Shown here: positions 11,768 through 23,403 of the stretch, one piece after another
Numbering within the stretch: position 1 is the stretch's first letter
Layout: each line of letters starts with the position of its first letter
Assembly (NCBI GenBank): GCA_012964825.1
Contig: DTTI01000034.1
Span: 1-37,151, forward strand
Source of the DNA: Candidatus Neomarinimicrobiota bacterium
GTDB lineage: Bacteria > Fidelibacterota > Marinisomatia > Marinisomatales > S15-B10
Reading direction: 5' to 3'
Length of the DNA: 37,151 nucleotides
Notes under the pieces: model-generated
Database searches by the model: none
What the model was told of the DNA's origin: nothing
What the model saw: only the letters and a program-made list of their open reading frames with translations
Position numbers and translations under genes: made by a program

Positions 11768-13786
11768 TCAGGCGGACTCTTCCGCCACTTTTTTTTCTTT
11801 GGATGAATCAGAGACGGATTTTTTGGCTTTACTCTCTTTGGCACCATTGGCTGATTTAGAACGATGGCGCCTCAGGCGTTTACCAGCCATGATTTTGTCT
11901 AGATCATTCCCATCAATAGTTTCGTACTTCAGTAGTTCCTTAGCCACGCGATGAAGCTGTTTTTCGTTGTCTTTCAGCAGTTTCGTTGCTTCCTCTTCGG
12001 CCTCACGAATAATTCGAGAAACTTCCCTATCAATTTTCTTGGCAGTAGTTTCACTGTAATCGCGATGGGTGGCGATTTCTCTCCCCAAAAAGATTTCTTC
12101 GTTCTTTTTGCCAAATGTAAGAGGTCCTATGAGATCACTCATCCCCCACTCGCACACCATTTTTCGAGCCATTTCTGTGGCCACCTCAATGTCATTCCCG
12201 CCTCCTGTAGTCAGTTCATTAAAAATAAGCTGTTCCGCAGCACGACCGCCCAGAAGCACTCCCAAACGAGCCTTGATGTAAGATTCTGAATAGTTATGTT
12301 TCTCATCCATTGGCAGCTGAGCTGTAACACCAAGGGCACGCCCCCGAGGTATGATGGATACTTTATGGACCGGATCGGCCTCGGGAAGAAGTTTGGCCAT
12401 AAGGGCATGACCTGCCTCATGATAAGCCGTCAATTTTTTCTCTTCATCGCTGATGATCATACTTTTCCGCTCAACACCCATCATCACTTTATCTTTGGCC
12501 GACTCAAAGTCTTCCATGTACACTTTCGATTTTCCATCCCGGGCCGCCAGTAAGGAAGCTTCATTTACAAGATTTTCTAGGTCAGCCCCTACCAAGCCAG
12601 GCGTTCCTTTGGCCAATACTTTCAGATCTACATCTTTCGAAAGGGGAGTCTCTTCTGTATGGACTTTCAGAATTCCTTCTCTGCCGCGGAGGTCGGGAAT
12701 ATCCACAACCACCTGTCGATCAAATCTGCCCGGTCGCAACAAAGCATTGTCCAACACATCGGGGCGGTTCGTGGCAGCAATAAGAATGACGTTGGTAGTG
12801 GACTCAAAGCCGTCCATCTCCACCAAGAGTGCATTAAGGGTCTGCTCACGTTCATCGTGGCCGCCGCCCAGACCGGCGCCTCTGTGGCGGCCCACAGCAT
12901 CAATTTCATCAATGAAAATGATGGCGGGAGCGTTCTTCTTTCCCTGTTCAAATAGATCACGAACACGAGATGCACCAACACCAACAAACATCTCCACAAA
13001 ATCAGCACCGCTGAGGCTGAAAAACGGTACACCCGCTTCTCCGGCTACAGCGCGGGCAAGCAGTGTTTTCCCTGTTCCGGGCGGACCCAGCAAGAGAACA
13101 CCCTTCGGAATGCGCCCACCTAATTTTTGATACCGCTCAGGACTTTTCAGGTAAGTGATGATTTCATATAATTCCTGTTTTGCCTCTTCACAACCGGCAA
13201 CTTTATCAAAATTGATCTTCGGCTTATCCTCCACCCACAGGCGGGCTTTGCTCCTGCCGAAATTGAATAGGCCACCTCCACCCATGCCGCCTTGCATCCG
13301 CTTCATAATAAAGATCCAGAAAACAATAAGAAGCAACCACGGTCCCATGCTCAAGAGATAGCTGAACCAGTCCACCTTCCGCTCCCTAAAACTGTACTTT
13401 ACTTCATATTGATCCCATTCGGTCAGAACTGTCTCATTTACAAAAGGCAGCGTAACCACAAACAGGGTAAACTCACCAATTTTTTGTCCTTCACGAATGA
13501 CTTCTTCAGGCTCCTTAAGCTTTCCATGGAATTCTTTTTCAATGATTTCTGCCTCAAGAATGGCACCTGATGTGAGGAAATCTTTATACTGAAAATATTG
13601 AACCTCTACTTCATTGCGGTTCTTGGCAGTAAAAAGGTTCGACAGGAAAATGACTGACACAAGAATAACAATCCAGACAATAGAGGTTTTCCCAGCTTGT
13701 TTCCACTGGAACTTGTTTTCACTTTCGCCGCCAGGCTTGTTCTGGGAGGGAGGTCTATGGTCTTTTTTGTCAGTCTTCTTTGTCAC
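11768..13786 (-). CDS. ftsH: ATP-dependent zinc metalloprotease FtsH
   Basis: Membrane-anchored AAA+ protease that extracts and degrades membrane and short-lived cytosolic proteins. In 672 residues it has a charged N-terminal extension (1-32), a first membrane helix (34-51), a periplasmic domain, a second helix (142-160), and a glycine-rich linker. The AAA+ domain follows with Walker A GPPGTGKT (234-241), Walker B IIFIDEID and the SRH region [19 protein letters not shown]. The zinc site HEAGH is at 456-460. The C-terminus is lysine/serine-rich. It begins with GTG overlapping the hpt stop codon (GTGA). The tilS-hpt-ftsH order is conserved in many bacteria. Confidence 0.97.
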
Positions 13787-14304
13787 GCTGTTAAATCCTC
13801 TTGATCCAACACACAGATATTCTTGAGGTTCCGCATTTTTTGATTATGATCCAAGCCATATCCAACCACAAAATCCGAAGGGATTGTAAATCCAATGTAA
13901 TCAGGATCAAAATTTAGTTGGGCAACCTCTTTTTTGAAAAGCAAAGTTGCCACAGCCACCGACGAAGGACCAGACTCTTTCAGTCTACGAACGATAAAGT
14001 TTATGGTTAAACCGGAGTCAATAATGTCTTCCACAATAACAATGTCCCGCCCGGTAATCTCGGCTGAGATATCTTTAAGCAAGTGAACGGTACCGGAAGT
14101 TTCGGTGCCTTCATAGCTGGAAACTTTTAAGAAATCAACTTCAGAATCCTCTGTCAATTCACGCAGTAGATCGGCCATAAAGACGAAACTGCCGTTTAGG
14201 ATGCCGACAAAAATGGGTGTGCGATCGCTGTAATCTTTTGATATTTCAGCAGCCATCTCACAGACGCGATCACGAATGGTTTGTTCTGAAAGCAACTCCC
14301 TCAC
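13783..14304 (-). CDS. hpt: Hypoxanthine phosphoribosyltransferase
   Basis: Purine salvage enzyme that makes IMP (and GMP) from the free base and PRPP. The 173 residues carry the type I phosphoribosyltransferase PRPP loop [12 protein letters not shown] (89-100), the flexible-loop region around [11 protein letters not shown], and the C-terminal base-binding [15 protein letters not shown]. It starts with GTG inside the stop of tilS (GTGA, 4-nt overlap) and overlaps ftsH in the same way, so three consecutive genes are stop-start coupled. Confidence 0.95.
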
Positions 14305-15689
14305 TGTTCCCCCTGTCCATCGATGTGGCTCCAGTTCAATCGTGCCACAGAGGCGGTGGCGGACGTCACTTTAAATCGGTTATCCAGCCGAAGGCCACAG
14401 AGCCAGACGATCTTATGAGCAGATGTAAGGACGTACTTTGACATCTTTGAAAATCTGTCCACTTTGGCATCTACCAGGATATCGCTTACCTTTTTTCGTC
14501 CGGACATACCAACAGGTACCATCCTGTCACCCGCTTGCCAGGGGCGAAGTCGAATTGATCCATGATCAAGCTGGTCAAAATCGATGAACTCGGTTTCACT
14601 TTCAGAGGAAAAAGTTGGCTCAGTTGTGAGGTCCATGGTGAAAATGTGGTCGCCCGCCTTTAAGGAGACAGAGGTGGCGGTATCCAGATGAAAAGAGTTG
14701 AGATCACCTTCACCTGTTACCCTCATGATGAGAAACCGGTGACGATCTTTGAGAATTTTGCAGTTGTCTGGGAGAACCATTATATCTCCTACAGTCGCCT
14801 TTTGAAGGAAACGGCTAAGGTCGTCCCAAACATGGCCACGCCAGGGAAGATCATTCTCATTCACCACCTCCCTCACCAGTTCCTTCTGAAGAAGTGGGGG
14901 GACTTTCCTTAATTCCTTTTCATCAATTTGAATGAGGCCATTCTCAGAGACTGAGACGGCCTTCCCGTAAAGGTCACGCAAATGTCCATCCACCCATTCC
15001 GCAACCTCCACCATGTTGGAGACGGTTCTCTGGGCGGTCTGTGAAAAATGAGAGTTCAACTTTTGGATTTGTGGTAAAATATTTTCCCGAATTCTATTCC
15101 TTTGGAAGCGAGTATCCTGGTTTGAGGAGTCTTCCCGAAAAGAGAGTCCGTTCTCACTGGCGTATTGGGTGAGTTCAGCCTTGGTGAATTTTAGCAGTGG
15201 CCGAACAACTTTCCCATTCCGCTCCGGGATCCCCCTCAACCCACGGTAACCACTCCCTTCCACGAGTCGCATGAGGAGAGTCTCGGCCTGATCGTCAGCA
15301 TGATGGGCCGTGGCGATCCAGTCACAACCCAATTGCTGGCACGTTTTGTCCAGAAAACCGTACCGCGCTTCCCTGGCCCTCTCTTCCCAGTTACTCAGCT
15401 CTGAAGACACCCACTGAGCCGAGAAGAATGGCAGGTCCAGCGCTTTCGCCCAATCTTTCACAAAGGCCTCATCTGCATCCGATTCTTCACCCCGGAGGGA
15501 GTGATTGAAATGGGCAACAGCAAGAGTAAGCCTAAAACTTTCACGCACTTGGGCAAAAAGATGGGCAATCACCACCGAATCGACACCGCCGGACACCGCA
15601 AGTAGTCCTGAAGATCCCTTCTCAATAAGTTGAGAGGAAAGCAGGCCTTCTCTGAACCGGATTTCGATTCCTTTAACTTTCTTTGGCAT
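14301..15689 (-). CDS. tilS: tRNA(Ile)-lysidine synthetase
   Basis: Modifies C34 of the CAU-anticodon tRNA-Ile to lysidine so that it reads AUA and accepts isoleucine; essential in most bacteria. The 462-residue protein has the N-type ATP pyrophosphatase loop SGGVDS (33-38), the HFNHSLRGEESDADE segment, the IATAHHADDQAETLLMRL motif and the VRPLLKFTKAEL segment. A C-terminal substrate-binding domain follows with RPWQAGDRMVPVGM and GRKKVSDILVDAKV. A purine-rich AAGGAAAG stretch precedes the ATG. An 89-nt spacer without a convincing terminator separates it from the preceding GAPDH-like gene. Confidence 0.95.
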   Translation of the reverse strand: MPKKVKGIEIRFREGLLSSQLIEKGSSGLLAVSGGVDSVVIAHLFAQVRESFRLTLAVAHFNHSLRGEESDADEAFVKDWAKALDLPFFSAQWVSSELSNWEERAREARYGFLDKTCQQLGCDWIATAHHADDQAETLLMRLVEGSGYRGLRGIPERNGKVVRPLLKFTKAELTQYASENGLSFREDSSNQDTRFQRNRIRENILPQIQKLNSHFSQTAQRTVSNMVEVAEWVDGHLRDLYGKAVSVSENGLIQIDEKELRKVPPLLQKELVREVVNENDLPWRGHVWDDLSRFLQKATVGDIMVLPDNCKILKDRHRFLIMRVTGEGDLNSFHLDTATSVSLKAGDHIFTMDLTTEPTFSSESETEFIDFDQLDHGSIRLRPWQAGDRMVPVGMSGRKKVSDILVDAKVDRFSKMSKYVLTSAHKIVWLCGLRLDNRFKVTSATASVARLNWSHIDGQGEQ

Positions 15690-15778: not shown

Positions 15779-16846
15779 CTAAACTTCAGAGAAGAAGAGG
15801 TGGTCCAGACCTTGAATCTTCTCATTGTAAGAGTCAGGATAGAGAAAATATGTTGCAGCAGCAATGGAACTGAGAAGCGAGTTCCCATCTTGAGGGGTAA
15901 AGCAGTAGCCCACCACCTCTGTCCCACCGTGAACAGCCAGGGTGGGAACAGAAACAACTGTCTGGTTAAGAATTCTTCCAAAGTGGCCATGGTCCCGTCC
16001 AAAGGAGAAAACAGAACTGGAGCTGGTTTTCTCAGTAAGAGCAATGAGCGGATTGGCGTCCAGTCTATCAATTACATCATTCAATGTCAAAGTTTCATTA
16101 AGCTCCAAATTGAACCAGATGACATGCATATATTGAGAATTAGTTTTCATAGCTGAGGAAAAAAGATGCGGCATCCGATCAATGGTCTGAAACAGTTCGT
16201 ATGCATCTCGAGCATGGTGGGTCCCAAACTTTTCGGAACCGTGTTTACCCACTTCGGGGGCTGGCACAAAAGCACTGGTCTGGCTGATATCGGAGGCTCT
16301 GCGAATGCAGACGAACCGACCTTCATCCAAAGTTTCGGAATCGTCAACCATACTAATTGATTTTGTCAGTGCTGCGATATTGTGTGTATTGCAGGAAACG
16401 ATCTGCACGAACTGCTCATCACTGTTAACCAGAGCGGTATCATTGATACCGCGAGCATACTTAATACCAAAACCGTGTTCACTTCCCTGCGCCAGAAAAC
16501 CCCTTCCGTTATCTACAAACTTCTCGTAATACTTGTGCTTATTCTCGTGACCGATCCCTCTCGGCGTACAGTCTATGACCACAGAAGCACTCTTGATGGC
16601 TTCTTCAGCGGTGAAAGATGGCTCCAGTCCAATCTCCTTGAAACTGTCCAGTTTTTCCTTATAGACGGCCAATTTTGCACCGCGCTTCATAAGGTCTTTC
16701 ACTTTAGCACGCTCATAGGTCAGTGGTGAATTCTTGTGAAAAGTGACCTCATCTATACCGAGCACTTTCTTGTAGTCGGAGAGAAGACCGATGAGAGGTT
16801 CTCCGATGGTTCCTGTGCCTACAATGTGAACAATTTTTTCAGACAT
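15779..16846 (-). CDS. Type II (archaeal-type) glyceraldehyde-3-phosphate dehydrogenase homologue
   Basis: The 355-residue protein resembles the archaeal GAPDH-II family rather than bacterial GapA. It has an N-terminal Rossmann motif VGTGTIGEP (9-17), VVIDCTPRGIG (89-99) where archaeal enzymes have VVDGAPKKIG, and FLAQGSEHG. The catalytic-cysteine segment VSCNTHNIAAL is present (Cys152; archaeal SCNTTGL), followed by phosphate-site arginines in CIRRASD and a paired histidine THH (210-211). The predicted reaction is NAD(P)-dependent oxidation of glyceraldehyde 3-phosphate with phosphate, or the reverse. Another phosphorylated aldehyde is possible because the neighbours are ccm and tilS, not glycolytic genes. 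It begins 5 nt after the ccmD stop codon and so appears to be the last gene of the ccm operon. Family assignment is fairly firm; substrate is not. Confidence 0.75.
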   Translation of the reverse strand: MSEKIVHIVGTGTIGEPLIGLLSDYKKVLGIDEVTFHKNSPLTYERAKVKDLMKRGAKLAVYKEKLDSFKEIGLEPSFTAEEAIKSASVVIDCTPRGIGHENKHKYYEKFVDNGRGFLAQGSEHGFGIKYARGINDTALVNSDEQFVQIVSCNTHNIAALTKSISMVDDSETLDEGRFVCIRRASDISQTSAFVPAPEVGKHGSEKFGTHHARDAYELFQTIDRMPHLFSSAMKTNSQYMHVIWFNLELNETLTLNDVIDRLDANPLIALTEKTSSSSVFSFGRDHGHFGRILNQTVVSVPTLAVHGGTEVVGYCFTPQDGNSLLSSIAAATYFLYPDSYNEKIQGLDHLFFSEV

Positions 16847-16851
16847 AATAT

Positions 16852-17001
16852 CTATTCCAGTTCACTCTTATTAGCGTTCAAACTTTTTAGCTCCTTTAGA
16901 AGTGCTTTCTCCTGTCGATAGATGGTGTAAATCCAACCACAGACAGCTACGAAAATTACCAAGAAAGCGGTAAGAAAAAAGCCGAAGTATTTATACATCA
17001 T
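16852..17001 (-). CDS. ccmD: Small heme-exporter protein CcmD
   Basis: A 49-codon gene on the minus strand, starting at ATG-ATG (17001 or 16998) inside the last codons of ccmC and ending at TAG (16852-16854). The product begins MMYKYFGFFLTAFL, has a single membrane helix (about 5-27), then the short basic/charged tail YRQEKALLKELKSL. This is the size and topology of CcmD, which holds CcmC and heme-loaded CcmE together with CcmAB. Position right after ccmC is the expected one. Sequence conservation in CcmD is low, so the call rests on position, length and topology. Confidence 0.85.
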   Translation of the reverse strand: MMYKYFGFFLTAFLVIFVAVCGWIYTIYRQEKALLKELKSLNANKSELE

Positions 17002-17674
17002 ATCGCATCTTCAGCACTTTCGAGCGAAGTTTCAGAATATGAACTCTATATCGAAGCATATGAACAAACAACAGTGTGAAAACCAAAAGTGAAAGCATAA
17101 ATGTCCAGAAGACATCAGGAGACTGCTGGCCCATGGCCGGCTGCGGGTGGAGCTGTGCATCAGCCGCCCAAAACTTTACTGAAACATAGATGATGGGAAC
17201 ATTAAAAAATGCTGCAATGCCTATGACGGATGATATTCTTCGGGTTCTTTCCCCCTCATCACCGAAGTTGCGTACCATAAAGTATCCTATATAGATGAGG
17301 AACATGATGAGTACAGTGGTGAGGCGTGGCTCCCAACTCCAGGGAGCGCCCCAAATGGGTTTCGCCCAGATGGGTCCTGTAATCAGGACAAGAGCGCAGA
17401 ATAGTGTTCCCAATTCAGCCGCAGCAAGACCGAGATGATCAAACTTTTCATCTTTTTTCATGAGGTAAAGAACAGCGGCAATCATGACAAGGAGATAAGC
17501 GACTCCTGCCGTCCATGCTGACGGTACGTGGTAGTAGAAGATCTTTTGTGCCATCTGCTGTTCGGGATCGATCCGTGTCACACTCAGCACAAGATAGAGA
17601 ACTGTAATCCACAGAACGGCTATAGCGCCGACCATTAATTTGGAACTCTGTTTAGAATGAAACGACTCCATCAC
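16991..17674 (-). CDS. ccmC: Heme export/handling protein CcmC
   Basis: Inner-membrane protein that presents heme to CcmE on the periplasmic side. The 227 residues form about six membrane helices. The tryptophan-rich WWD heme motif WGAPWSWEPRLTT is at 108-120, and the candidate axial histidines are H49 (FYYHVPSAW) and H176 (DAQLHPQPAMG). Start is GTG at 17674 overlapping the ccmB stop, or ATG one codon later. The stop overlaps ccmD. Confidence 0.95.
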   Translation of the reverse strand: MMESFHSKQSSKLMVGAIAVLWITVLYLVLSVTRIDPEQQMAQKIFYYHVPSAWTAGVAYLLVMIAAVLYLMKKDEKFDHLGLAAAELGTLFCALVLITGPIWAKPIWGAPWSWEPRLTTVLIMFLIYIGYFMVRNFGDEGERTRRISSVIGIAAFFNVPIIYVSVKFWAADAQLHPQPAMGQQSPDVFWTFMLSLLVFTLLFVHMLRYRVHILKLRSKVLKMRYDV

Positions 17675-18333
17675 TCCTCGCTCACATAGTCATAGATTAA
17701 ATAACCCACAAGGCTATAAACAACGACGAAGGTTACAATCAACTGGAACCACAGTTGCCACTGGCTGAACGGCTGATTCTCCATCATGGCGGCGGTACTC
17801 TTTACTGCACTGATAAGCAGTGGTGTCACCATAGGAAAGAGCAGCAGTGGAAGGAGCATTTCATTTACCCGGACGCGCATAACCGTCCCGGAAAGGAGAC
17901 TGCCAGCGGCACTGATTCCCAGGTCCACCAGCAGAAAAACAGCCATCATCTGGCCCAAGTTAGATGGAAGGGGCAGCTGAAGAAAAAGAAAAAAGAGCGG
18001 CAAAAGAATCACCTGAGCAACAACTAAGAAAATGAATCCGCTGAGACACTTGCTGACAAAGAGGATACTCCTTTCAATAGGAGCGGAAAGAATCATTGAA
18101 AAAGCATCAAACTCTTTTTCAAGACTGTGGGAACGGTGGAGTGCCAGCACGCTCACAAACAGGAAAATCATCCACATTAATCCAGGAGCGAATGTCTGCA
18201 TGGATTGAGGGGACGGCCGGAAAGCGAAGGCATAGAGCAGTGTAACTGCCGCACCGAATGTAACCATGGAGATGAGAATCTCTCGGCTCCGAAACTCTAT
18301 AAGAAGATCTTTTCTTAAAAGGACCGCCAGCAT
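17671..18333 (-). CDS. ccmB: Heme exporter membrane subunit CcmB
   Basis: Membrane subunit of the CcmAB ABC transporter that drives release of holo-CcmE. The 220-residue protein starts LLRKDLLIEFRSREI, the typical CcmB opening, and has six predicted membrane helices. The conserved loop TVMRVRVNEMLLPLLLFPM lies near 150-170. Its ATG overlaps the ccmA stop by one base and its stop overlaps ccmC by 4 nt. Confidence 0.93.
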   Translation of the reverse strand: MLAVLLRKDLLIEFRSREILISMVTFGAAVTLLYAFAFRPSPQSMQTFAPGLMWMIFLFVSVLALHRSHSLEKEFDAFSMILSAPIERSILFVSKCLSGFIFLVVAQVILLPLFFLFLQLPLPSNLGQMMAVFLLVDLGISAAGSLLSGTVMRVRVNEMLLPLLLFPMVTPLLISAVKSTAAMMENQPFSQWQLWFQLIVTFVVVYSLVGYLIYDYVSEE

Positions 18334-19016
18334 CAGGCCTCCGCCGCAAAACCATTACTTTTGGATCTCGCCTCGTTCCCTTCAGTCGTCTGAAGACGCC
18401 CTCCACTCAGCTCCACCATCCGGTCACAGTTTGAGGTGAGCCAATCTTCATCATGGGAAACAAGTAAAAGTGATCTGCCTTCTGCCCGCCAGGAGTTGAT
18501 CAATTTGGAAAGCGTCGACTTCCCCTCACTGTCAAGGCCGGTGGTGGGCTCGTCAAGAAGGAGAAGTTCCCAGGGAATGATCAAAGCTTTTGCCAGCGAC
18601 AGCCTCTGAAGCATCCCGCGGGAGAATTGCCTGATGGGACCGCTTCTGCCGGGATCGAGTCCCACTTCCGTTAAATTGTATTCAACATCAGCCTGTGTAA
18701 CATCCAGACCATAAAGCCTGGTTAGCAGCACAAGATTTTCTTGGGCGGATAGAGGCGGGTAAAATCCAGGCTCGTGCCCGATATAAAGAAGTGAACGGCG
18801 TTGGTCCGCACCACCATTCAGGATGGAATCACCGTTCCAGGAAACGGATCCCTCATCACAGGAAACCACCCTCACAACGATTCGCAGAAGGGTCGATTTT
18901 CCCGAGCCGTTAGACCCCGCCATTCCAACCGATTCGCCATCCCTGATCTGAAGCGAAACTTTCCGAAGAATCGGCCGGTAGCCGAACTGTTTACTGACAT
19001 TTTGTATGAAGAGCAC
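18333..19016 (-). CDS. ccmA: Heme exporter ATPase CcmA
   Basis: ABC ATPase partner of CcmB. The 227 residues contain Walker A GSNGSGKST (34-42), the signature region FSRGMLQRLSLAKAL and Walker B ELLLLDEPTTGLD, followed by the switch histidine in LLLVSHDEDWL. The signature reads SRGM rather than SGGQ, a variant common in CcmA. Start is GTG at 19016, 15 nt after the ccmI-like gene. The C-terminal tail after the ATPase core is short. Confidence 0.93.
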   Translation of the reverse strand: MLFIQNVSKQFGYRPILRKVSLQIRDGESVGMAGSNGSGKSTLLRIVVRVVSCDEGSVSWNGDSILNGGADQRRSLLYIGHEPGFYPPLSAQENLVLLTRLYGLDVTQADVEYNLTEVGLDPGRSGPIRQFSRGMLQRLSLAKALIIPWELLLLDEPTTGLDSEGKSTLSKLINSWRAEGRSLLLVSHDEDWLTSNCDRMVELSGGRLQTTEGNEARSKSNGFAAEA

Positions 19017-19311: not shown

Positions 19312-21285
19312 TTATTTTCCCTTGCCTGATGCACGGCTCGGCCAGAGAGCAATGACGGTCCCGAAAAGAAGGAAATAGCCCCCCAACCAGACAAACCGAA
19401 CCAGGCGGTTTACCATAATCTTAATGGTGAGCAGTTCATTCTCCGGATCTATGCCGCCAAATACAGAGTAGACGTCCTCCCGCCATGTGGAGTGAAGCGA
19501 AAGTTCGCTATGAGGCTGGTGGCGGTCAGGATTCGGATTGCGGTGAAAATATATCCGTTTCTCCGGGGTCAGGGAAACCACATTTTTGCCCTCTTTGATC
19601 ACATCAAGTGTGGCAATCCAGGCATAGTGATTCGGTCTCTCCTCTTCTTTCAAATCGGCAAGAAGTATATCATAGCCGGCCAGTTGAACTTCGTCACCCA
19701 CTGACATGGTCCATTCCTTATCTTCATCAAAGGCCTTTCCTATAAATCCCACAAACATAAAGACAATCCCTATATGAACGATATACCCTCCGTAGCGCGA
19801 CCTGTTCTTTGAGACCATCTTTAAGAAGGCAGTAAATGGGCTCTCGTCAAACTTTCTGGTTCTTACACTGATACCCCGCCAGAATTCAAGCAAAATAGCG
19901 GCTGCCACAAAGGCCGCAAGAAAAACTGTAACCACAGGATATACGGTCCGGATGCCCAAAACCAGAACCACCATAACTACCAGAAGACCTGTAAGAACAG
20001 GAATGGAGAAGTTCCTGATCAAACTCTCTTTGGAGGTTCTCCGCCATGCCAGCAGCGGGCCAATGCCAGCCAGCAATAGCAGGAAAAGACCGATGGGAAT
20101 TGTGATCTGATTGAAAAATGGCGCACCCACTGTGATCTGAGTTCCTGTTACTGCTTCAGAAATAATAGGGAATACAGTCCCCCACAATACAGCAAAACAT
20201 ATACTCACAAAAATAACATTATTAAAAAGAAACCCGCTCTCTCTGGAAACAAACGATTCCAGTCGCTTCTCGGTTTTCAGATCATTGAGTCTGGTGATAA
20301 TCAGATAAATACTTACAGCAAGAATGAGCAGGACGAACGCAAAAAACATGGGGCCCAGGGAAGATTGTGTAAAAGAGTGAACTGAGGAGACCACACCACT
20401 GCGCGTGAGAAACGTGCCGAAAATACAGAGCAGAAACGTCACCAGAATGAGGATCATGTTCCACACTCTCAGCATATTTTTCTTTTCCTGAATAATGATA
20501 CTGTGGATAAAAGCGGTCCCCGTCAACCAAGGCATGAAGGAGGCATTTTCAACAGGGTCCCATGCCCAGTAGCCACCCCATCCCAGCTCATTGTAGGCCC
20601 ACCAGCCTCCCAATAGGACTCCGATTCCAAGGGCCAGCCAGGTGAACAGCGTCCACCGGCGGATGGTGCGTACCCAGACAGCGTCCAACTGCCGGGAAAA
20701 AAGTGCCGCTATGGCAAAGGCAAAGGGAACAGAGAAACCCACATAGCCTAGATAAAGCATGGGCGGGTGTATGGCCATGGCGGGATTTTGAAGCAGCGGA
20801 TTGAGCCCCAGTCCATCTTGTACCACAAAGTCAGCCTCAACTGGTGCAAAGGGATTAGCCACAAAATTGACCAGCAGCAAAAAGAAAGCCTGGATGACGG
20901 TGAGTGTTATGATGACATAAGGCATGAGCTTCTCATGCCTGTGCCTGTTTTGAAATATGACCACAGCCGAATAGCAGCAGAGAACAAAGAGCCAGAACAA
21001 AAGCGATCCTGACTGGCCCGCCCAGATTGCCGTGAATTTGTAGATGGTAGGCGTGCCCAGGCTGGTGTACTTGGCCACATAGTCCATGTCAAAATCGCTT
21101 TTCAAAAGACTTGCCAGCAGCGTTACCGTTGCCAGTACTACAAGAAAGCAGACGCTCAGGCTGGTTCTCTGAGCCGCAAAGAAAAATCTCTCATCGCTCC
21201 GCCGAAGGAAAAGAACGATGAGAAAAATGGTGACAACGGCTAAGCCGAGACTCAGACTGAGAAGTGAGGCACCGTATTGTGGCAT
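19312..21285 (-). CDS. ccmF: Cytochrome c heme lyase subunit CcmF
   Basis: Large membrane protein that takes heme from CcmE and attaches it to apocytochrome CxxCH sites. The 657 residues have many membrane helices, the conserved IHPPMLYLGYVG (172-183) and the WWD motif WGGYWAWDPVENASFMPW (236-253). The family's usual C-terminal periplasmic segment and last helix are complete. It follows ccmE by 30 nt and is followed immediately by the ccmI-like gene. No ccmG or ccmH thioredoxin/thiol subunit lies in the window. Confidence 0.95.
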   Translation of the reverse strand: MPQYGASLLSLSLGLAVVTIFLIVLFLRRSDERFFFAAQRTSLSVCFLVVLATVTLLASLLKSDFDMDYVAKYTSLGTPTIYKFTAIWAGQSGSLLFWLFVLCCYSAVVIFQNRHRHEKLMPYVIITLTVIQAFFLLLVNFVANPFAPVEADFVVQDGLGLNPLLQNPAMAIHPPMLYLGYVGFSVPFAFAIAALFSRQLDAVWVRTIRRWTLFTWLALGIGVLLGGWWAYNELGWGGYWAWDPVENASFMPWLTGTAFIHSIIIQEKKNMLRVWNMILILVTFLLCIFGTFLTRSGVVSSVHSFTQSSLGPMFFAFVLLILAVSIYLIITRLNDLKTEKRLESFVSRESGFLFNNVIFVSICFAVLWGTVFPIISEAVTGTQITVGAPFFNQITIPIGLFLLLLAGIGPLLAWRRTSKESLIRNFSIPVLTGLLVVMVVLVLGIRTVYPVVTVFLAAFVAAAILLEFWRGISVRTRKFDESPFTAFLKMVSKNRSRYGGYIVHIGIVFMFVGFIGKAFDEDKEWTMSVGDEVQLAGYDILLADLKEEERPNHYAWIATLDVIKEGKNVVSLTPEKRIYFHRNPNPDRHQPHSELSLHSTWREDVYSVFGGIDPENELLTIKIMVNRLVRFVWLGGYFLLFGTVIALWPSRASGKGK

Positions 21286-21315: not shown

Positions 21316-21720
21316 TCAAAGGGAGGTATCCGTTTCCCTCAGGTCGCCCTCATAGCGAGAGGCGCACTTTGTCATGAGATTGTCCGCGTAGAATTTTTCA
21401 CCGTCGTAGATACCCTCCACAATGACTTCAGACCCATTTTTGAACATATCAGGTACGATTTTGTGATAATTGACAGGCAGCTGGTTTTGTTCCTGTATCA
21501 GAACAAAAGAAAGGGAGAGAGGATCATCCTTATTTCGGACAATAGAACCGTCTTTTACATTGCCGCCTAATCGAAACCGCTTACCGGGTTTATTATCTTT
21601 TTTTATTGTCAATTCCTGAATGGTGACATATGGAAGTTCATTCCCTTTAAAACCAAGGCCGACCCAGACAGTCATCAGGAGAGCGATGGCAATGATGACA
21701 GCTGCAAATTTCTTATTCAT
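21316..21720 (-). CDS. ccmE: Heme chaperone CcmE, cysteine (CxxxY) variant
   Basis: Periplasmic heme carrier anchored by an N-terminal helix (about 5-23), with the OB-fold core RLGGNVKDGSIVR and LPVNYHKIVPDMFKNGSEVI. The usual covalent heme ligand is a histidine in HxxxY; here the aligned segment is CASRY, with Cys119 and Tyr123. Such CxxxY CcmE proteins are known from archaea and some Desulfovibrio-type bacteria (system I*), where heme binds through cysteine. The ATG at 21720 lies 12 nt after the mutase gene. Confidence 0.93.
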   Translation of the reverse strand: MNKKFAAVIIAIALLMTVWVGLGFKGNELPYVTIQELTIKKDNKPGKRFRLGGNVKDGSIVRNKDDPLSLSFVLIQEQNQLPVNYHKIVPDMFKNGSEVIVEGIYDGEKFYADNLMTKCASRYEGDLRETDTSL

Positions 21721-21732
21721 GTGTCACTCTTA

Positions 21733-23403
21733 TTACAGAACAGGCGTTTCTGTCCACTCCCCAAAAACTTTTTTCATGGCGTCAACAATTTCTCCCATGG
21801 TGGCATCTGCTTTTGCAGCTTCCACGATGGGCGGAACCAAGTTTCCGCCTTCGCGCGAAATCTCTTCCACCCTATTGAGACAAGCATCAACCATTGCCTG
21901 GTCACGGTTTTCACGGAGCTTGACCAAATCTGCTTTTTGTTTTTCCTCGGCCTCCAGACCGATCTCCAGAATAGGGATCTCTATTTCTTCATCTTCTTTA
22001 ATGAAGTCATTAACCCCCACCACAATGCGGCTGTTTTCATTCACCTTCTTTTCATAGTCAAACGAGGCACGTGCAATCTCCCGCTGAAAAAATCCCTCCT
22101 CAAGTGCCGGAATAACACCACCCATTTTTTCCACTTTCTCAAAATATTCTTTTGCCTCTTTCTCCAGTTCATCAGTGAGTGATTCGATGTACCAAGACCC
22201 TCCCAGAGGATCAACAACATTGGCCACACCTGTTTCATAGGCAATAATCTGCTGGGTCCTGAGTGCAATCTCGGCAGCCTTTTTTGAAGGCAAGGCCAGT
22301 GTTTCATCCATGGAATTGGTATGAAGGGACTGTGTCCCGCCCAAGACGCCGGCCATGGCCTGGAATGCGGTGCGGGCAATATTGACTTCCGGCTGTTGGG
22401 CGGTGAGGCTGCAGCCGGCTGTCTGCGTGTGAAAACGCAGTTTCCACGAGCGGGAATCCTTGGCACCGTATTTCTCTTTCATATGACGGGCCCAGATTCG
22501 CCGCGCAGCCCTAAACTTTGCGATTTCTTCCAAAAAATCAAGATGGGAGTTGAAGAAAAAAGAGAGTCTAGGAGCAAACTTGTCAATATCAATACCGCGC
22601 TCGATGGCATGCTCAACATAACAGAATCCATCCAGCAGCGTGAATGCAAGTTCCTGAGCGGCGGTGGAGCCTGCCTCCCGGATGTGATAGCCGCTGACGG
22701 AGACAGTATTGAACTGTGGCATTTCGTTGGTGCAAAACTCAATAGTGTCTGTAATAATCCTCATATGATCTCTGGGCGGGTAGATCCATTCTTTCTGAGC
22801 AATGAACTCTTTCAGGATATCGTTTTGAAGTGTTCCACGGAGATCCTTTAGAGGGATACCCTGTTCTTCAGCAACGGCAATGTAGAGAGCCAGCAAAACG
22901 ATGGAGGGACCGTTAATGGTCTGGGAAACGCTCACATCACCGAGGCTGATACCGTCAAAAAGTGTCTTCATATCTTTGAGAGAGCAGACGGAAACACCGC
23001 ATCTACCCACCTCTCCCTCGGAAAAGGGGTGGTCCGGATCGTAGCCCATGAGGGTGGGCATATCATAGGCTATGGAGAGACCCATTTGACCCTCCCTCAT
23101 GAGAAAATGGTACCTTTCGTTGGTTTCCCTCGGTGTCCCGAAACCTGAGAATTGCCGCATGGTCCATAGCTTGCCACGGTACATGTTGGCGTGGATGCCT
23201 CTTGTGTAAGGATATTGCCCGGGAAAACTGATCTTATCCATGAAATCACCGGTGGGCTGTTCCGGGTAGTAGAGCACATCTACCTCTTCACCACTTAGAG
23301 TATCAAAGCTGTACTGACGCTCTCCATTTGAAGAGGATTCCTTCTTCCAGCGTGCCTCAGATTCAGAGAAGAATTCTAGTTGGTGGTTCCCGTTTGAGGA
23401 CAT
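21733..23403 (-). CDS. Coenzyme-B12-dependent acyl-CoA mutase, large subunit (isobutyryl-CoA mutase-like pocket)
   Basis: A 556-residue TIM-barrel mutase of the methylmalonyl-CoA mutase superfamily without the B12-binding domain, which must come from a separate small subunit outside this window. Radical-enzyme residues are kept: His240 in SGYHIREAG and Gln193 in GTLQNDILKEF (MCM His244 and Gln197). The substrate-pocket pair differs from MCM. Tyr89 is Phe85 (MRQFSGFGT) and Arg207 is Gln203 (KEFIAQKEW). Phe plus Gln is the known isobutyryl-CoA mutase combination, so interconversion of isobutyryl-CoA and butyryl-CoA is predicted over methylmalonyl/succinyl-CoA. Length matches the two-subunit IcmA type. 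It is separated from cstA by 1 nt and is followed by ccmE. Family is certain; substrate is inference. Confidence 0.85.
   Translation of the reverse strand: MSSNGNHQLEFFSESEARWKKESSSNGERQYSFDTLSGEEVDVLYYPEQPTGDFMDKISFPGQYPYTRGIHANMYRGKLWTMRQFSGFGTPRETNERYHFLMREGQMGLSIAYDMPTLMGYDPDHPFSEGEVGRCGVSVCSLKDMKTLFDGISLGDVSVSQTINGPSIVLLALYIAVAEEQGIPLKDLRGTLQNDILKEFIAQKEWIYPPRDHMRIITDTIEFCTNEMPQFNTVSVSGYHIREAGSTAAQELAFTLLDGFCYVEHAIERGIDIDKFAPRLSFFFNSHLDFLEEIAKFRAARRIWARHMKEKYGAKDSRSWKLRFHTQTAGCSLTAQQPEVNIARTAFQAMAGVLGGTQSLHTNSMDETLALPSKKAAEIALRTQQIIAYETGVANVVDPLGGSWYIESLTDELEKEAKEYFEKVEKMGGVIPALEEGFFQREIARASFDYEKKVNENSRIVVGVNDFIKEDEEIEIPILEIGLEAEEKQKADLVKLRENRDQAMVDACLNRVEEISREGGNLVPPIVEAAKADATMGEIVDAMKKVFGEWTETPVL

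Follow-up and report, generated by a model that had tools for sequence, protein, structure and literature searches.

What does an enzyme resembling the type II GAPDH of archaea do in a bacterium, and does its position beside genes for cytochrome c maturation (ccm) bear on its function? The gene in question (355 aa; 15779..16846, minus strand) lies in the window, by which we mean the whole analysed stretch of 37,151 nucleotides from a Candidatus Neomarinimicrobiota bacterium. Its intact frame, its family matches and an AlphaFold2 (AF2) model mark it as a GAPDH-II-like dehydrogenase gene. The frame runs from ATG to stop on the minus strand, whereas the plus strand is interrupted by stops. The translation holds every motif quoted in an earlier sequence-only reading, namely GTGTIG (residues 10-15), SCNTHNI (151-157), IRRASD (181-186) and THH (209-211).

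The gene order in the window, all on the minus strand, is ccmE (21316..21720; PF03100), ccmF (19312..21285; PF16327 and PF01578), a ccmA-like ABC ATPase gene (18333..19016; PF00005), ccmB (17671..18333; PF03379), ccmC (16991..17674; PF01578), a 48-aa ORF in the ccmD position (16852..16998), the focal gene, tilS (14301..15689; PF01171 and TilS_C) and an hpt-like phosphoribosyltransferase gene (13783..14304; PF00156). The focal ATG at 16846 is 5 nt past the stop of the 48-aa ORF (16854-16852), which had no match in the Pfam search and takes its ccmD label from position and size alone. The sequence-only reading had placed the gene inside a ccm operon. The tight spacing to the ORF in the ccmD position is there, but the gene is the 3' end of the ccm block, closing it rather than lying in its interior. 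Upstream of ccmE is a methylmalonyl-CoA mutase gene of the large-subunit type (21733..23403, minus strand; TIGR00641 at 726 bits, PF01642). Its product keeps the Arg of HMRIITD and has RQFSGFG at a site that we take to be RQYAGFS, with Tyr, in characterised methylmalonyl-CoA mutases. Judging from these residues, its acyl-CoA substrate may depart from methylmalonyl-CoA.

Type II GAPDH models (the TIGR01546 and NF003251 equivalogs) were the sole NCBIfam matches of the focal protein. The scores were 102.7 bits (E 2e-29) against a cut-off of 185 for one model and 82.3 bits against 232.9 for the second. Class I GAPDH (PF00044/PF02800) was ruled out, as the Pfam search up to E 1 gave no match to PF00044 (Gp_dh_N). 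Semialdhyde_dh (PF01118; aspartate-semialdehyde and acyl-phosphate dehydrogenases) was also rejected, with a weak match to the N-terminal domain only that stayed below the gathering score (16.9 vs 26 bits); one further match was weaker and at chance level. Both phmmer and a profile of 48 sequences, the latter aligned near full length, matched the four archaeal GAPDH structures (TIGR01546/PRK04207; M. fervidus 1cf2, S. solfataricus 1b7g, P. horikoshii 2czc and M. jannaschii 2yyy). The AF2 model (mean pLDDT 93.4, pTM 0.92) has the GAPDH-II fold, and its best six matches in the PDB were chains of the same four structures (TM 0.76-0.80), followed by class I GAPDH (TM about 0.6-0.67). Sequence, predicted fold and catalytic residues thus all show the focal protein to be homologous to type II (archaeal) GAPDH, and it shares with these enzymes also the length and the paired arginines. 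Class I GAPDH (GapA/GapB), although alike in the overall two-domain fold and, by inference, in the reaction, is a different family.

The homology does not extend to membership of the canonical family. A scan of genome contigs retrieved 77 homologous loci, full or partial, mostly from Neomarinimicrobiota, and otherwise from Entotheonella, Acidobacteriota (Geothrix), Myxococcota, Nitrospinota, Planctomycetota, Acidimicrobiia and Thermoplasmatota. Given these loci and the NCBIfam score, the ORF and its family signal are not due to chance. In the tree, the 107 sampled focal sequences formed one group (SH-aLRT 100). The branch between them and the 34 canonical type II sequences was very long, and identity to canonical GAPDH-II is low, about 20-28% (around 25%). 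Because the focal protein scores below both NCBIfam cut-offs and belongs to a clade of its own, we place it, on sequence grounds, outside the canonical type II family. The assignment to the type II (archaeal) lineage made from the sequence alone thus holds for homology, fold and active site, whereas the label 'archaeal-type' has to be made more exact, to a sister clade separate from the canonical family.

Members of this clade occur in most Neomarinimicrobiota and in some Acidobacteriota, Tectimicrobiota and other groups; among archaea, they are found in part of the Thermoplasmatota. Among 175 genomes of the window's phylum, each at least 80% complete, about 138 carry the focal family, a count from which 15 weak cross-hits (to class I GAPDH) were taken out. 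A canonical type II GAPDH above the cut-off was found in none of the 175. Thermoplasmatota were basal in the tree and paraphyletic to a single bacterial group (support 98). An AU test did not, however, reject archaeal monophyly (p 0.384), and transfer between archaea and bacteria may have run in either direction. Other bacterial type II homologues are known from plasmids and clostridia (Methylocystis, Paracoccus, Meiothermus, P. thermosuccinogenes). Of these, the tree covered five plasmid-borne enzymes, which grouped with canonical GAPDH-II, apart from the focal clade; their neighbours are a P-type ATPase, glgP or pfkA.

The active site was compared in an alignment of 107 focal and 34 canonical sequences including the M. 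fervidus enzyme, and invariance was checked in a separate alignment (A1) of 48 diverse focal-clade sequences. The residues kept in both clades are, in M. fervidus and focal numbering, C140/C152, N141/N153, R167/R182, R168/R183, D171/D186, H193/H210, D197/D214, H219/H241, Q300/Q319 and K33/K38; R182, R183 and H241 do not vary in either clade. In A1, C152, N153, R182, R183 and H241 are invariant, as are G10, G12, T13 and G15 of the GTGTIG dinucleotide-binding loop (16802..16819; this and the following positions are on the minus strand). We take Cys140 and His219 to be the catalytic pair of M. fervidus. The predicted catalytic cysteine is therefore C152 (16391..16393), and R182-R183 (16298..16303) are candidate phosphate-binding arginines. 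The THH pair highlighted in the sequence-only reading is present, and its first histidine, H210 (16217..16219), is conserved in both clades. However, the predicted catalytic histidine is H241 (16124..16126), because it is H241 that aligns with His219. K38 (16733..16735), a candidate contact of the NADP 2'-phosphate, suggests NADP(H) as the cofactor.

Other positions set the clade apart. SCNTH replaces canonical SCNTT, a change of T143 to H155 that differs from all canonical enzymes; GTHHARD replaces PSHHGPD, and PQDGN replaces HQESD (HQES becoming PQDGNS). The focal sequences also have extra insertions. H155, Q238, R291 and the PQDGN loop are invariant or nearly so in the clade. As H155 directly follows the NT of SCNT, the substrate pocket may be unlike that of the canonical enzymes.

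Is the enzyme the only GAPDH of its hosts? In the window's genome it is not: a complete class I GAPDH gene is present, as a check for gapA revealed, and the suggestion that the focal gene replaced class I GAPDH is rejected for this genome, in which it is a second GAPDH system. The two class I genes there form an overlapping tandem pair (contig C3, L001 787-2813), in which the NASCTTNC motif is normal in the downstream copy, while in the upstream copy Ser stands in place of the catalytic Cys (SSTT). The same replacement was found in all 11 Neomarinimicrobiota pairs read, relatives L150-L159 among them, and the upstream copy is apparently a conserved GAPDH paralogue lacking the Cys beside an active one. 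Tandem class I pairs also occur in Geothrix and one planctomycete, and in L163 and L165 at least the motif is altered. The window's genome (G000) has PFK, PGK and TPI, while no pyruvate kinase (PF00224) was found, and its glycolysis may end in another enzyme, for example PPDK.

In some other genomes the focal gene stands alone. Thirteen of 41 carrier genomes tested have no class I GAPDH above the cut-off, and none of the 41 has a type II GAPDH above it. The 13 include two single-contig Entotheonella chromosomes, which encode PGK and TPI and in which no GAPDH of class I or, above the cut-off, of type II was found. In the window's phylum, class I GAPDH accompanies the focal gene in 107 of the 138 carriers and is missing from 31. 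The plainest example, a streamlined genus of 14 genomes (g11; 0.7-1.0 Mb, up to 98% complete), has the focal gene in 13/14 and PGK in 12/14, while class I GAPDH, PFK and pyruvate kinase were each found in 0/14. A genome that runs gluconeogenesis but no glycolysis would be expected to look like this. Across 77 Thermoplasmatota genomes, the focal family occurs in 19 and canonical GAPDH-II in 44 (42 above the cut-off and two C-terminal fragments), and never both together, against about 10.9 co-occurrences expected (P about 2e-9, with genomes treated as independent and phylogeny ignored). The focal enzyme is thus the only phosphorylating GAPDH found in streamlined relatives and in several other lineages.

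The neighbourhoods give a divided picture. Across 51 scored loci of the Neomarinimicrobiota type, the closest upstream gene among those scored was ccmC (24 loci), a GCS2-type ligase gene (16) or a methylmalonyl-CoA mutase gene (11). With ccmC in just 24/51, we rejected a functional tie to cytochrome c maturation, and with it the proposed link to redox metabolism: the ccm neighbourhood is lineage-specific and incidental, and carries no functional signal. The downstream side is stable, with tilS followed by hpt, ftsH and folP, and tilS is sometimes preceded by a gene for an MBL-fold hydrolase or methylenetetrahydrofolate reductase. This hydrolase, encoded directly 3' of the focal gene in L032 (6678-7376) and 20 other loci, many from Neomarinimicrobiota, resembles hydroxyacylglutathione hydrolase, below the cut-off. 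The triose-phosphate link to Dxs and PdxS is a matter of co-location in the window only. In the Neomarinimicrobiota, as had been remarked for the window, glycolytic genes never adjoin the focal gene, which stands against a role in central carbon metabolism as we propose it below.

Other lineages differ. In ten Thermoplasmatota loci (L051, L056, L061, L117, L124, L128-L132), pgk ends 13-30 nt upstream of the focal gene on the same strand; the L051 copy was confirmed by a family search and the other nine were read by sequence. In Acidimicrobiia, the focal gene comes directly after the glyoxylate-shunt genes for malate synthase A and isocitrate lyase. A histidine phosphatase in L048, considered as a phosphoglycerate mutase, scored best as a ribazole/phosphoserine phosphatase type, below the cut-off, and was dropped. 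Loci of Tectimicrobiota and Acidobacteriota (L050 10944-11897, L053, L070, L071 and L078) have, close to the focal gene, a gene for a MeaB-like GTPase (a mutase chaperone), which was identified by inspection of the sequence. Such neighbours, and the methylmalonyl-CoA mutase genes, may be a sign of gluconeogenesis fed by propionyl-CoA.

We consider it probable that the focal gene encodes a phosphorylating GAPDH of a deep sister clade of GAPDH-II, working most likely in the gluconeogenic direction. This reading draws on the homology to GAPDH-II only, the GAPDH-II fold of the AF2 model, the conserved M. fervidus residues and the Entotheonella chromosomes. It draws further on the pgk genes upstream and the mutual exclusion with canonical GAPDH-II in Thermoplasmatota, on the gene set of g11 and on the glyoxylate-shunt genes of Acidimicrobiia. 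Phosphorylating G3P dehydrogenase activity is in this way supported indirectly, through context and distribution. Of the three functions suggested from the sequence alone, a second enzyme for gluconeogenesis is hence the best supported, whereas no positive support was found for a different phosphorylated aldehyde as substrate.

From the predicted fold, residue conservation, operon partners and distribution we infer substrate, cofactor, direction and catalytic roles as follows. The 1,3-bisphosphoglycerate supplied by PGK would acylate C152, and a nicotinamide hydride, probably from NADPH, would reduce the thioester. H241 would act as acid/base, with R182, R183 and H210 holding the phosphate, and G3P would be released as the product. 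In the window's organism, the enzyme would complement a class I GAPDH serving glycolysis, similar to GapII and GapI of haloarchaea. Haloferax volcanii uses gapII for gluconeogenesis and gapI for glycolysis (PMC10817205). In both cases one genome encodes a class I GAPDH together with a type II-like one, with the division of labour that we propose; here, though, the organism is a bacterium and its type II-like GAPDH comes from another clade.

If in many hosts the enzyme were a GAPDH for both directions, or mainly a glycolytic one, this would explain why Entotheonella and f15 genera lacking class I GAPDH keep pyruvate kinase, and why a pyruvate kinase gene is found 3' of the focal gene in L054. 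Some focal-only genomes of f15 (genera g35-g40) keep PFK as well, and there the enzyme may also be glycolytic, or GAPN/GAPOR may do that step. As a general account this seems unlikely to us, since in g11 the focal gene and PGK have outlasted PFK, pyruvate kinase and class I GAPDH, which were lost together, and since class I GAPDH accompanies the focal gene in most carriers of the phylum.

Somewhat less likely again is the reduction or oxidation of another substrate. This could be, for instance, an acyl-CoA or a semialdehyde from the methylmalonyl/succinyl-CoA pathway, or else a phosphorylated aldehyde such as erythrose 4-phosphate. The 11 loci with an upstream mutase gene, the nearby MeaB-like GTPase genes, the family-specific active-site changes and the low identity to canonical GAPDH-II would all fit such a substrate. 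The pgk operons and the mutual exclusivity in Thermoplasmatota argue against it, as does the retention of the complete GAPDH-II catalytic and arginine set. For erythrose 4-phosphate in particular, PdxS/PdxT, read from the sequence of the window, make its oxidation unnecessary for PLP. It is highly improbable that the protein is a non-catalytic or moonlighting relative of GAPDH. The one assayed bacterial class II GAPDH, a different protein from P. thermosuccinogenes, showed no activity in a 2019 study (PMC6543838), which weighs against our preferred reading too. However, C152, H241, R182 and R183 do not vary among the 48 diverse sequences of the focal clade, and all but one of the 14 g11 genomes, small as they are (0.7-1.0 Mb), keep the gene. 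The gluconeogenic GAPDH remains our preferred reading.

A wider proposal, to which we give about even chances, is that the clade represents a third GAPDH subfamily with an altered active site, specialised for NADPH-driven gluconeogenesis, present in part of the archaea and in several phyla of bacteria, and the sole GAPDH of streamlined marine bacteria capable of gluconeogenesis only. A literature search of incomplete coverage found no published biochemistry or description of the clade, and none on Marinimicrobia GAPDH or the phylogeny of class II GAPDH. Few enzymes have been studied as much as GAPDH. Even so, the focal clade, found in most Neomarinimicrobiota and some archaea, falls under the annotation cut-offs. 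Functional evidence for class II GAPDH in bacteria was stated to be absent in 2019 (PMC6543838), and members of the focal clade are strong candidates for testing such a function. In complete Entotheonella chromosomes and in 1-Mb marine genomes, the focal gene would fill the missing GAPDH step that links PGK to the triose phosphates.
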